Origin: a virus
Length of the DNA: 22,125 nucleotides
Virus record (IMG/VR): IMGVR_UViG_3300044616_000808
Coordinates: 1 to 22,125 of that record
Strand: one strand, 5' to 3'
The notes beneath the pieces were generated by a model that saw only the letters and a program-made list of their open reading frames with translations, had not been told where the DNA came from and made no database searches. Positions within the stretch are counted from its first letter, which is position 1, and every line of letters starts with the position of its first letter. A program made the translations under genes and the position numbers. This document shows, in pieces, positions 3,997 to 11,484 of the stretch.

Positions 3997-6111
3997 ATGA
4001 ATGAAGAAAATCAGGAAATTATCGAGAAAGTTTTAGCCTACAAGCTGGAGGATCATCCAATCCTGCCTGCGCCTAATAAGCGGGAAAGGTTGGCTATGAT
4101 CCAGAACATTGGCCCGGAGAAGGTGCTTGATCTGTTCCTTATGCGGGAGAACAAGATTAAGGCTGAACAGAACGATCCGATGCGCTATGGCCACGAACTG
4201 GCGCACTGGCCCGACGCGGACAGCCTGCTCAACCGTTTTAACGAGACGGTCATCCTTGGCGGGAATAGATGCCTGGCTGGGGAGACGGAGATCACAGATG
4301 CCAAGACCGGCAAGAAGCTGCGCGTAGATGCCATCAACAAGCCGTTTCATGTTCTGGCCATAGATGAATCAACCGGGCAGGTTGTGGTGGCTGAGGCTGA
4401 GGTTCCTTTCAAGAAAGAAAATGCGGATCTCTTTGAGGTAAAGACAAACCTTGGCACATCGGTTGTTTGCTCAGGGGCACACCTTGTTTTGTGCAAAGAT
4501 AAAACGTGGATGCCTATTTCAAAGCTGTCTACCAGCTCTGAGCTCTTTCATCCATGTGAAGACCTTAAGATAGAGTCAGTGCAATTTATACGGAATGACG
4601 TTGTGTGGGATTTCACCGTCCCAGTATATCATAACTACATACATGCGGCGATAACCCATCACAATTCAGGAAAAACCGAGTACGCAGCCAAACGGATGGC
4701 TCAAGCGTTCATCGGCACTGACCTGTCCGGCACTACACCCGACTGGATCAAGGAACGCCAGGGTAAACGCAACATCCGCATCTGGTGTTTGCACACGACC
4801 CACATGACCAGCGTGTCAGCACAGCAGAACGTATTCTATAAGTACCTTCCACCAGAGATTCGCAACATTAAACGTACTAATCATACGCAAATTAGTTTTA
4901 GCCAAAAGAACGGCTTTAGCGACAATACGGCGGTGTACATGGGCAACCAGATCTGGTTCCTGAACTATGCCCAGGACATTAAGGTGGTCGAAGGTGGCGA
5001 GGTGGACTACGTCTGGTGCGACGAGCTTGTCCCGCAGAACTGGCTGGAGACCCTCCGCTACCGGCTTGTGACACGCTCAGGCAAGCTGATCGTCACCTTT
5101 ACGCCGGTGCAAGGGTACACCCAGGTCGTGAAGGAGTACATCAACAGTACCAAGGTCACCGTCAGCCGCCCCTCGCCGCTCTTGCCCAATAGCAACGTCC
5201 TTACCGTACCCAAGGGTGAGATGCCCTACATGGCCGAGAACCTGTACGGACGACACGCCTGCATCTGGTATCATACCGAGCTTAACCCGTACAACAACTG
5301 GGAACGGATGAAGCAGGAGCTTTCGGGGCGCTCCAGCCACGACATCAAGATCCGCGCTTATGGCTGGGCAGATCAGACGGCTGGCTCCGAGTTTCCCATG
5401 TTTGGTGACCACAACCTGTGGAAGGGGGAGCCGGAAGACTTGATCCCCGAAGGAAGCAACTACATGACCGTTGACCCTGCCGGGGCGCGGAACTGGTTCA
5501 TGCTCTGGGGTAGGGTGGATAAATACGGTATACTTTGGGTCTACCGTGAATGGCCCGACCAAAGCTACGGGGAATGGGCGCTCCCTAGTGACAAGGCCGA
5601 CGGTCGAGCTGGCCCGGCACAGAAGGCGGGTGCAGGTCGCGGGGTGAACGAGTATACGGACTTGATCTGGAGCCTGGAGACGGCTGGCGACCGGCGCGAG
5701 ATGATCGTTGACCGTTGGATTGACCCAAGGACGGCTGGCACGGAGACGATCACCCGTGATGGGGGTGTTACAGTGTTGGACTTGCTTAATCAGACAGATA
5801 ATCCACTTATATTTACTCCTGCCGCCGCCATGCCAATTGAAGAGCGGGTGATGTTAATCAATGATCTTTTGTCATGGGATAGAGAAAAACCAATGGAAAA
5901 AGGTGTAAACCATCCCAAGTTAATGGTGCATGAGCGTTGTCAGAACTTGATTTACAGTTTAAAGGAATGGACTGGACAAGATGGACAAAAAGGTGCTAGT
6001 AAAGATCCAATTGACGCCTTAGGATATATGGTGGTTATGCAGCCACAATACTTCGGCGGTGAACAATGGGAAAAGCAAATGAGGCAAATGGCTCAAAGCG
6101 GCTCTTATTGA
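3997..6111 (+). CDS. terL: Terminase large subunit with intein in Walker A
   Basis: This is the ATP-driven DNA-packaging motor and nuclease that docks on the portal. The 704-residue precursor contains a 132-residue intein (residues 92-223); the mature protein would be 572 residues. The extein join restores GGNR-SGKTEYAAK, a typical terminase Walker A. Walker B is DYVWCDE (337-343, with D342 and E343), and TFTP (367-370) fits the coupling motif. The C-terminal RNase H-like nuclease shows D493 in MTVDPAG, D576 in RWIDP and D670/D673 in KDPIDALGY. The ATG at 3997 lies after the structured region and lacks a Shine-Dalgarno sequence. The portal gene starts 13 bp after the stop. Base composition changes sharply near 5760: 42 of 60 bases are G or C at 5581-5640, against 24 of 60 at 5881-5940, while the protein remains terminase-like. 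This suggests a recombination junction. No small terminase is visible in the window. Confidence 0.95.
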   Translation: MNEENQEIIEKVLAYKLEDHPILPAPNKRERLAMIQNIGPEKVLDLFLMRENKIKAEQNDPMRYGHELAHWPDADSLLNRFNETVILGGNRCLAGETEITDAKTGKKLRVDAINKPFHVLAIDESTGQVVVAEAEVPFKKENADLFEVKTNLGTSVVCSGAHLVLCKDKTWMPISKLSTSSELFHPCEDLKIESVQFIRNDVVWDFTVPVYHNYIHAAITHHNSGKTEYAAKRMAQAFIGTDLSGTTPDWIKERQGKRNIRIWCLHTTHMTSVSAQQNVFYKYLPPEIRNIKRTNHTQISFSQKNGFSDNTAVYMGNQIWFLNYAQDIKVVEGGEVDYVWCDELVPQNWLETLRYRLVTRSGKLIVTFTPVQGYTQVVKEYINSTKVTVSRPSPLLPNSNVLTVPKGEMPYMAENLYGRHACIWYHTELNPYNNWERMKQELSGRSSHDIKIRAYGWADQTAGSEFPMFGDHNLWKGEPEDLIPEGSNYMTVDPAGARNWFMLWGRVDKYGILWVYREWPDQSYGEWALPSDKADGRAGPAQKAGAGRGVNEYTDLIWSLETAGDRREMIVDRWIDPRTAGTETITRDGGVTVLDLLNQTDNPLIFTPAAAMPIEERVMLINDLLSWDREKPMEKGVNHPKLMVHERCQNLIYSLKEWTGQDGQKGASKDPIDALGYMVVMQPQYFGGEQWEKQMRQMAQSGSY
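4270..4665 (+). other. Mini-intein (132 aa) inserted in TerL Walker A loop
   Basis: The insert starts with Cys92 in block A (CLAGETEITD) and ends with His222-Asn223, followed by Ser224 as the +1 nucleophile. Block B is around GTSVVCSGAHLVL (153-165) with H162; the usual Thr of the TxxH motif is Ser159. Block F is VVWDFTVPVYHNYI (202-215) with D205 and H212-N213. Block G is ITHHN. With only about 130 residues there is no room for a homing endonuclease, so this is a splicing-only mini-intein. Removal joins GGNR to SGKTE. Until splicing, the P-loop is split and the terminase should not bind ATP properly. Confidence 0.93.
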
Positions 6112-9601: not shown

Positions 9602-10654
9602 ATGGCACTTCTAACTGAACCTAATCTTAGCGGTCGCGGTAAACGCGAAGACTTGATGGACATGATTGCGCTTGTCGATGCAAAAGACACGCCATTCACG
9701 TCTATGGCCCGTAAGGGCAGCAAGCCCGGAAACATGTTTTTCCGTTGGCAGGCAGACAGCAATCCTGCGCCAAAAGTTGGCGGCACGATTGACGGCACGG
9801 ACGTTAGCACTTACACCAACTGGGATGTAGGCTATCGCGCCGAGCTGGCTAATTACGCTCAGGTGTTCCGCATGGACGCCGTTCGCGTGTCCAAGCTTTC
9901 CACTGACATTGCTCAAGTGGCAGGCGTGCGCGATGAGTTGGCGTACAACGTGTCCAAGTCGATCCTTCAGTGCAAGCGTTCGATTGAAACGACACTTTGC
10001 TCCAACCAAACCGCGCAACAGGACAACGGCTCTGTTCCTTACCTTACGGCTGGGATCCAGACATGGATCAGCACCGCTGGCACAGGAACTCCAACCCCCG
10101 GAGACATCCCTTCACAGTTCCGCACTCCTTCCGATTCGATCCTTACTGGTGCATCTAGTGGATTGACGGACCTTGACGTGCAAGGCTTGCTGAAGAGCAT
10201 CTACAACCAGACTGGTCAGTATCGCTCGTTTGACGCAATTGTTGGCACCGACCTCAAGCGTGCATTTACAAGCCTGCTTGGAACCTCGCAGTTGACTACA
10301 ACCTCCACTGCTGGAGTTTTGGCTGCTGGCGCAACCAAAGTGCAGACCTTCCAGCGTGACGCTGCTGCTGAAACCTACATCCAGTCCGTGGACGTGTTCC
10401 AAGGCGACTTCGGTACGGTCAAGCTGCACCCCACGGTGTTCCTTGGAACAATCAGTGGCGGCGCATGGACGGTGACCCCATACAAGGGGCTTGTCCTGAA
10501 CATGGACTTGATCGAAGTCCGCTACGGCGGAAACGTAGCCGCTGTGCAATCGCTGCCTGACTTCGGTGGCGGTCCTGCTCGGGTTGTAGAAGCCGTCTGC
10601 GGTCTTGTTGTCGGGAACCCGCTGGGTCTCGGCAAGTTTGACTTCTCAAGCTAG
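9602..10654 (+). CDS. Major capsid protein, SU10/DUF5309-like, 350 aa
   Basis: The N-terminal part KREDLMDMIALVDAKDTPFT (15-34), followed by SMARKGSKPGNMFFRWQADS (35-54) and APKVGGTIDG, matches the pattern of the SU10 major head protein family (DUF5309), which has the HK97 fold. The rest continues with RVSKLSTDIAQVAGVRDELA and, later, YRSFDAIVGTDLKRAFTSLL and KLHPTVFLGTISGGAWTVTP, as expected for such capsid proteins. Length is typical. It follows the scaffold gene after 44 bp. Codons are GC-rich and regular, as for a strongly expressed gene, yet the ATG is preceded by GATTTAGTATT with no Shine-Dalgarno sequence. The tandem RNA-like array begins 11 bp after the stop, so it is probably part of the capsid transcript. 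Confidence 0.88.
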   Translation: MALLTEPNLSGRGKREDLMDMIALVDAKDTPFTSMARKGSKPGNMFFRWQADSNPAPKVGGTIDGTDVSTYTNWDVGYRAELANYAQVFRMDAVRVSKLSTDIAQVAGVRDELAYNVSKSILQCKRSIETTLCSNQTAQQDNGSVPYLTAGIQTWISTAGTGTPTPGDIPSQFRTPSDSILTGASSGLTDLDVQGLLKSIYNQTGQYRSFDAIVGTDLKRAFTSLLGTSQLTTTSTAGVLAAGATKVQTFQRDAAAETYIQSVDVFQGDFGTVKLHPTVFLGTISGGAWTVTPYKGLVLNMDLIEVRYGGNVAAVQSLPDFGGGPARVVEAVCGLVVGNPLGLGKFDFSS

Positions 10655-10664
10655 TCCCCCTACC

Positions 10665-10738
10665 AGCGACACCTGCCGACCTTGGGCCACCATACCCGTA
10701 GGCGCAAACGAGTGGTGTGACACTCTGGAGAGACAGAG
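10665..10738 (+). repeat. RNA array unit 1
   Basis: Block 1 is at 10665-10675, block 2 at 10711-10721. The arm can fold as CCTTGGG with CCCGTAGG (one bulged T, one G-U pair). The last hairpin is CTCTG (10723-10727), loop GAGAGA, CAGAG (10734-10738). Confidence 0.8.
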
Positions 10739-10750
10739 ACAATAGCGTCG

Positions 10751-10839
10751 AGCGACACCTGTGGTTCCAAATGGAGCCAAACGCTTCCAGTGCTATGCAA
10801 CTGGTTGACAAGTGGTGTGACTAATCGGAGAGACGATTA
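10751..10839 (+). repeat. RNA array unit 2
   Basis: Block 1 is at 10751-10761, block 2 at 10811-10821. The arm holds two hairpins: TGGTTCC (10762-10768) with GGAGCCA (10773-10779), and CCAGT (10787-10791) with ACTGG (10800-10804). The last hairpin is TAATCG (10822-10827), loop GAGAGA, CGATTA (10834-10839). A 12-bp palindrome (10843-10854) links it to unit 3. Confidence 0.85.
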
Positions 10840-10854
10840 CTCCTCCAATTGGAG

Positions 10855-10938
10855 AGCGACACCTGCTGGTGGCTCCATGCCGCCGGACTTGATTGGCGAA
10901 AGCTGGTTGAGTCAGTGGTGTGACTAATGGAGAGACAT
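10855..10938 (+). repeat. RNA array unit 3
   Basis: Block 1 is at 10855-10865, block 2 at 10914-10924. The arm holds CTGGTGGC (10866-10873) with GCCGCCGG (10879-10886) and an 11-bp hairpin (10887-10912) capped by a GAAA tetraloop and containing several G-U pairs. The last hairpin is short: ATG (10927-10929), loop GAGAGA, CAT (10936-10938). Confidence 0.85.
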
Positions 10939-10946
10939 CTATAGAG

Positions 10947-10995
10947 AGCGACACCTGCCAGCAATGCAAAGTGGTGTGACACTGGGAGAGACTAG
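10947..10995 (+). repeat. RNA array unit 4 (minimal)
   Basis: Block 1 is at 10947-10957, block 2 at 10970-10980, separated by only 12 bases, in which at most a very short stem fits. The last hairpin is CTGG (10982-10985), loop GAGAGA, CTAG (10992-10995), with one G-U pair. It shows that the long arm is dispensable to the motif. Confidence 0.8.
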
Positions 10996-11004
10996 AATTT
11001 TTTT

Positions 11005-11484
11005 ATGGGCGCACAAAAAATTAATTCCAATCCAAACGCGAACGCGGGGCAATATCAATTTACTCCACAAATTAAAAACATTGATCCGAATCAGGTTCCT
11101 GCTGGAGGAATAAGCTTGCAGCCATTTCCTTCTGAACAAGGAGAAGTAAGGGGGATTAAAGGAGCCACCACCGCCGCGCTTCAAAATGTTTATGCGTTGC
11201 AAAAAGCCGCTGCGGAAAATTATAACAAGCAATTGATTCAACAACAGCAACAAGTTATTGATGCTGAAAATAAAAAGATTGCAGAACAAAACCAAAGGCT
11301 TATTAATAACCCCAAAAATATTGTTAAAGGTGCAAAATACAGCGCTAGCCCTAACGCTACTAAAGGGCCGCCAGTACAAAATTACGCAAAAGGCGCAAAA
11401 TACCTTAACCGGGCAGGGCAACAACCCGCACAGAAGAGCCCTCTTGAATCTAGTTTGTTTACGGCCCCAATAAATAGGATGTAA
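11005..11484 (+). CDS. Hypothetical virion-region protein, 159 aa
   Basis: The N-terminal third is Asn/Pro/Gln-rich (MGAQKINSNPNANAGQYQFT). Residues about 57-100 form a Gln-rich predicted coiled coil (ALQNVYALQKAAAENYNKQL, QQQQQVIDAENKKIAEQNQR). The C-terminal part has two related segments, NIVKGAKYSASPN and NYAKGAKYLNRAG. No family is recognised. It could be a minor capsid, internal or decoration protein by position, but that is inference. The ATG follows a T7 tract and the RNA array, with no Shine-Dalgarno sequence, so its expression may depend on the array. The gene is AT-rich compared with the capsid gene. Confidence 0.7.
   Translation: MGAQKINSNPNANAGQYQFTPQIKNIDPNQVPAGGISLQPFPSEQGEVRGIKGATTAALQNVYALQKAAAENYNKQLIQQQQQVIDAENKKIAEQNQRLINNPKNIVKGAKYSASPNATKGPPVQNYAKGAKYLNRAGQQPAQKSPLESSLFTAPINRM

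Follow-up and report, generated by a model that had tools for sequence, protein, structure and literature searches.

A pseudoknotted phage RNA motif, present in four tandem copies behind a capsid gene, as a candidate element acting on the elongating RNA polymerase

The gap behind the major capsid gene of a viral DNA stretch of 22,125 nucleotides (IMG/VR record IMGVR_UViG_3300044616_000808, hereafter the window) contained four tandem units of a three-block motif which, as judged from its sequence variation across phages, is an RNA element with three covarying helices, S1, S2 and P3. Each unit is predicted to form an H-type pseudoknot (S1 and S2); UGAC comes next, and then the P3 hairpin, whose G(GARAGA)C loop is invariant. 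With some reserve, we favour the reading that the motif may be a nascent-RNA element modifying the elongating RNA polymerase, comparable to the put RNA of phage HK022 in its working but not itself a put.

The array occupied positions 10665-10996 of the + strand. The preliminary description had reported four copies identical at 30 of 30 bases, with stretches of different sequence and length between the blocks, and this held: the blocks were exact, in the same order and all on the + strand, with AGCGACACCTG starting at 10665, 10751, 10855 and 10947, AGTGGTGTGAC at 10711, 10811, 10914 and 10970, and GGAGAGAC at 10727, 10827, 10929 and 10985, while the spacers of units 1 to 4 measured 35, 49, 48 and 12 nt between blocks 1 and 2 and 5, 5, 4 and 4 nt between blocks 2 and 3. 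Dinucleotide-preserving shuffles of the window gave no match to the three-block pattern, for which the chance expectation was 0. Unit 1 (10665-10738) pairs G10666-C10667 with G10675-C10676 in S1 and 10669-10673 with 10714-10718 in S2, and the P3 arms at 10723-10726 and 10735-10738 enclose the loop GGAGAGAC at 10727-10734. The S1 of unit 2 (10751-10839) consists of a G-C and a G-U pair (10752-10753 with 10761-10762), its S2 joins 10755-10759 to 10814-10818, and its P3 is a stem of 5 bp (TAATC/GATTA) with the loop at 10827-10834. Unit 3 (10855-10941) has an S1 of 3 bp (AGC/GCU), an S2 formed by 10859-10863 and 10917-10921, and a weak P3 of 2 bp plus a closing G-C pair around the loop at 10929-10936. 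Unit 4 (10947-10996), whose S2 is formed by 10951-10955 and 10973-10977 and whose P3 (CTG/TAG) carries the loop at 10985-10992, has the shortest P2, with 12 nt separating its first two blocks. The number of units varied in close relatives, with four in L103 and L112 and two hybrid units in L062, the latter apparently produced by recombination at the common AGTGGTGTGAC.

Directly upstream of the array, on the + strand, lies the major capsid protein gene (9602-10654; Pfam SU10_MCP, 135.8 bits), a firm assignment, and unit 1 begins 10 nt past its stop codon at 10654. About 10 nt separate the end of unit 4 from the ATG at 11005 of a 159-aa ORF (11005-11484, + strand), which has no family match and, like the other genes of the window phage, no Shine-Dalgarno sequence. 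Type III antitoxin repeats (ToxI-like), which are nearly identical and lie beside a toxin gene, were rejected as an identity for the array: its units vary in length and spacing, the gene in front of it encodes the capsid protein, and neither of the two ORFs that follow it matched PHROGs or Pfam. The 5' end of a group II intron (GUGYG) was also rejected, since unit 4 is followed by only about 10 nt before the next gene begins, no intron domains were found and Rfam gave no group II match. Elsewhere in the window, a terminase-like gene (3997-6111) showed a weak intein-splicing match (residues 111-174) ahead of its ATPase match, which suggests a putative intein in the large terminase subunit, and an ORF on the minus strand (1378-1983) matched Pfam GP88 (gene product 88).

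The search patterns constrained the blocks and left the stems free, so that covariation in the stems was an independent test. P3 is a stem of 3-5 bp with the third block, G(GAGAGA)C, as its loop, and pairing of its arms was found in 86% of cells instead of 48% after shuffling, over 135 distinct instances and with all six pair types. An E. coli prophage related to the E. coli phage mEp390 had one P3 pair swapped, a compensatory change in an otherwise identical core. S1 is the pseudoknot helix, and its strands, the GCs on either side of the first block, immediately flank that block. We scored it in a second form of the motif, described below, by comparing the upstream nucleotides -1 to -3 with positions +2 to +4 past the 5' strand of S2, and found pairing of 82%, 77% and 63% against 41%, 44% and 34% in shuffled sequences; the signal appeared only in the right register, shifted registers being at background. 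S1 of the first form consists of two G-C pairs, replaced by U-A/A-U in a few phages. The complementarity of ACACC and GGTGT, already pointed out in the preliminary description, corresponds to S2, which covaries in the wider family from ACACC/GGUGU in the window to ACGCC/GGCGU or AGUUC/GAACU in other phages; the last is our reading of the sequence of mEp390, where the loop is read as GGAAAGAC. Blocks 1 and 2 themselves thus covary across the wider family, and this result, the hairpin nature of block 3 with its covarying arms and the pseudoknot helix go beyond the earlier account. When S1, S2 and P3 were taken together, both sides had changed in 10 of 13 pairs, with a covariation score of 0.409 against 0.100 and slid controls of at most 0.145. 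Folding-energy z-scores were -1.9, -2.1, -4.1 and -0.1 for units 1 to 4, modest values for units 1, 2 and 4 from a method that cannot display a pseudoknot. The P3-type hairpins of Pseudomonas phage Itty13 (L256:2180-2220) were densely packed with scant room for a pseudoknot, so that P3 may also occur by itself.

The gapped three-block pattern was present in at least 119 stretches of viral contigs and in 12 stretches of bacterial and archaeal genomes totalling 257 billion bases. Inspection of arrays revealed the second form, GAACGCC..GGCGUGAC-stem-GGAGAGAC, in at least 120 stretches. The two forms adjoin each other in the same phages, and the covariance model of the second form (R2), built from other phages, recovered unit 1 of the window at E 1.4e-6; they are therefore one family. 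The second-form model was also run on whole bacterial genomes, with a prefilter able to lose weak matches, and it hit 3 of 349 Pseudomonadota, 2 of 151 Chloroflexota and 0 of 146 Cyanobacteria. The motif, widespread in viral contigs and rare in bacterial genomes, is thus mainly a phage element, and pattern scans placed it in many phages besides that of the window. The hosts of cultured phages with the motif include Escherichia, Vibrio, Pseudomonas, Gordonia and Planktothrix, and the carriers as a whole span phages of Proteobacteria, Actinobacteria and Cyanobacteria as well as genomes of Chloroflexota. Annotated carriers include Pseudomonas Itty13 and Medea1, Gordonia LittleMunchkin, Mannheimia 587AP2, Morganella IME1369_02, Providencia PSTRCR_117lys, Rhodobacter RcCWillis, Sinorhizobium phiM9, Synechococcus MinM2, EBPR podovirus 1, E. 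coli mEp390, Klebsiella P7641, Acinetobacter Alexa, Cronobacter CS01, a group of Vibrio siphophages, Aggregatibacter S1249 and, with a weak match, Iodobacter phiPLPE. At L010:7470-7740 and L125:7620-7790 the motif formed the 5' portion of longer non-coding regions, apparently structured, with CCAGCGAAAGCUC in common; L125 has a second copy downstream, with the loop GGAAAGAC.

The motif had been called unrecognised, and neither the Rfam 15 covariance models, at gathering and at permissive thresholds (E up to 5-10), nor literature searches, whose coverage excluded most subscription journals and bioRxiv, returned a family or a description that matched it. Its reading as an RNA was borne out by the covariation. 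Drum and skipping-rope RNA motifs are linked to phages and sometimes tandem, their function is not established, and they are believed to have Rfam entries; Rfam, however, gave no match to our motif. The glycine riboswitch has the string GGAGAGA in common with it but no other conserved element.

Comparison of the gene contexts showed that both flanking genes were on the strand of the motif in 90 cases and both on the opposite strand in 9, when random gaps gave equal numbers. The motif was often closely behind a stop codon, with the next ORF after it at a median of 37 nt; ORFs were called crudely, as the longest open frames, and such placement figures are trends. A tRNA gene followed in 23 of 224 clusters, typically at 8-19 nt, where less than 1% was expected, so that the position of the motif is not specific to translation. 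The protein-coding genes downstream were functionally incoherent (RuvC, portal, SSB, connectors, methyltransferase, ParB, polymerase), and in some carriers the motif stood at the start of early recombination operons or ahead of terminase genes. Among 198 clusters, 147 had a single copy, 39 had two, 8 had three, 3 had four and 1 had five. At L176:8300-8380, a P3 hairpin with GGAGAGAC as its loop took the place of the anticodon arm in a tRNA-like gene; a search for further cases gave 18 matches against 13 for a reversed-loop control, none of which besides L176 forms the stem, and their sequences were unrelated.

These positions are the ground for the put-like reading: the motif would act in the nascent transcript, at untranslated points, ahead of any next gene and in hosts of different phyla. 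Each unit would be a cis-acting RNA that folds as it emerges from the RNA polymerase between two phage genes and acts on the host elongation complex, and the polymerase would then resist pausing or (Rho-dependent) termination in untranslated stretches, whether behind a stop codon, ahead of tRNA genes or in early-operon leaders, the job done by HK022 put RNA and lambda nut sites. In the window, the four units downstream of the capsid gene might keep, or tune, transcription into the later genes. The range of hosts over several phyla suggests a universal host partner, of which RNA polymerase or the core elongation factors would be the simplest; it is from this pattern that we infer an effect on transcription and any contact with the polymerase. 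An antiterminator or processing element, one of the functions listed in the preliminary description, fits the contexts best. Several results speak against the put-like reading. Intrinsic terminators were not enriched downstream of the motif (42 against 50 upstream, of 149 clusters), some copies are isolated, in convergent regions or antisense to their annotated neighbours (Alexa, Vibrio 1.103.O, RcCWillis), and a Q-type antiterminator is also encoded by mEp390, 587AP2, S1249 and IME1369_02, which rules out the motif as a replacement for Q.

In five temperate phages of different genera (mEp390, 587AP2, P7641, Medea1 and S1249), the leftward early operon had the motif in its leader, behind the repressor, the region of putL in HK022. 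The element of mEp390 is on the minus strand at 27420-27505. A promoter-like site was found about 370 nt upstream of the element in mEp390 and about 240 nt upstream in 587AP2; in HK022, putL closely follows its promoter, and the distance from promoter to put is about 270 nt for putR (PMC9378689). The motif and put are both short phage RNAs of about equal size with two structural arms, found in early-operon leaders and indifferent to the identity of the downstream genes. The action of put is blocked in zinc-finger mutants of rpoC. However, put consists of two stem-loops without the S1/S2 pseudoknot or the G(GARAGA)C loop, and it is present at both early operons, whereas these temperate phages had one copy per genome and none in the rightward early operon, a difference that also counts against put-like action. 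The HK022 genome contained no GGAGAGAC, and its best R2 score (13.9 bits, E 0.06) was inside the IS903 transposase gene; with no convincing match in sequence or structure, homology to put was rejected. A lone P3-like hairpin (GACTGATGGAAAGACATCG) at position 39855 of HK022 (L255), upstream of the terminase end, may be there by chance. Like the motif, lambda-type nut sites (boxA/boxB) are cis-acting RNAs of phage operons whose small hairpin loop is rich in purines, but boxB has a pentaloop in place of a hexaloop plus pseudoknot, and no phage N protein coupled to the motif was identified. Two E. coli prophages related to mEp390 (L295 and L296) have the flanks of its element in common with other sequence in its place, which in L295 is a terminator-like hairpin with a T run.

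The strongest rival is a processing role, because such elements occur at tRNAs and gene borders (PMC10879173). The motif would then be a self-cleaving ribozyme or a host RNase site that splits the transcript into a separate capsid mRNA, tRNAs and downstream mRNAs, which would suit a compact pseudoknot with strictly conserved unpaired bases, placed between cistrons and directly ahead of tRNAs; the HDV-like theta ribozymes of phages also lie on the sense strand at tRNAs (PMC10879173). We consider this unlikely, since theta ribozymes abut tRNA 3' ends whereas the motif is mostly 5' of tRNAs, commonly by 8-19 nt, no HDV-like or other Rfam ribozyme family matched it, tandem copies within one gap would be redundant, and early-operon leaders need no processing. 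By the tests made, the motif is not a member of put, the theta ribozymes or any Rfam family. A rather improbable alternative is an attenuator or a stabiliser of the 3' end, either of which would increase capsid mRNA relative to the mRNA from downstream. The location behind the capsid gene, in the family of the window and in Stenotrophomonas phiSHP3, would agree with it, as would the variable copy number and the T-run that 47 of 149 clusters have at most 14 nt beyond P3, against 4 in a control stretch, but most other contexts are not behind a capsid gene, and P3 is short and usually has no U-tract directly after it.

We think it decidedly improbable that the motif, as a non-coding RNA or RNA domain, acts in trans by binding a host factor, for example as a decoy for an RNA-based defence or an RNA-binding protein, with the copies as several sites. 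Its invariant exposed loop, its clusters of up to five copies, its co-location with tRNAs and some copies in long gaps far from any sense gene are consistent with this, but the strong sense orientation, the closeness of the next gene in most phages and the preponderance of single-copy clusters are not. It seems highly improbable that the motif is a riboswitch or translational element directed at the start codon that follows. Pseudoknots are common in riboswitches, and an ORF often starts 10-40 nt downstream; nevertheless, tRNA genes occupy the same position, the downstream genes belong to no common pathway, Rfam gave no match and the window phage does without Shine-Dalgarno sequences. A metabolite riboswitch, in the sense of the tandem riboswitch aptamers suggested earlier, is not favoured with downstream genes so incoherent, tRNAs among them, and a Shine-Dalgarno role of GGAG is weakened because the genes of the window phage lack such sequences and the motif also precedes tRNAs.

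The motif represents a widespread and deeply conserved phage RNA family, with a pseudoknot backed by covariation and no Rfam entry. It is possible, though doubtful, that it forms a new RNA class of phages of Proteobacteria, Actinobacteria and Cyanobacteria that reprograms the host elongation complex without a phage protein (or, failing that, self-cleaves), as a portable gene separator. RNA-only antitermination has so far rested on HK022 put, of which only ten known sequences were compared in the cryo-EM study (PMC9378689). If the motif acts like put, controlling RNA polymerase without a protein would be a strategy common among phages of different bacterial phyla; if it is a ribozyme or a decoy instead, it would likewise be a new class.
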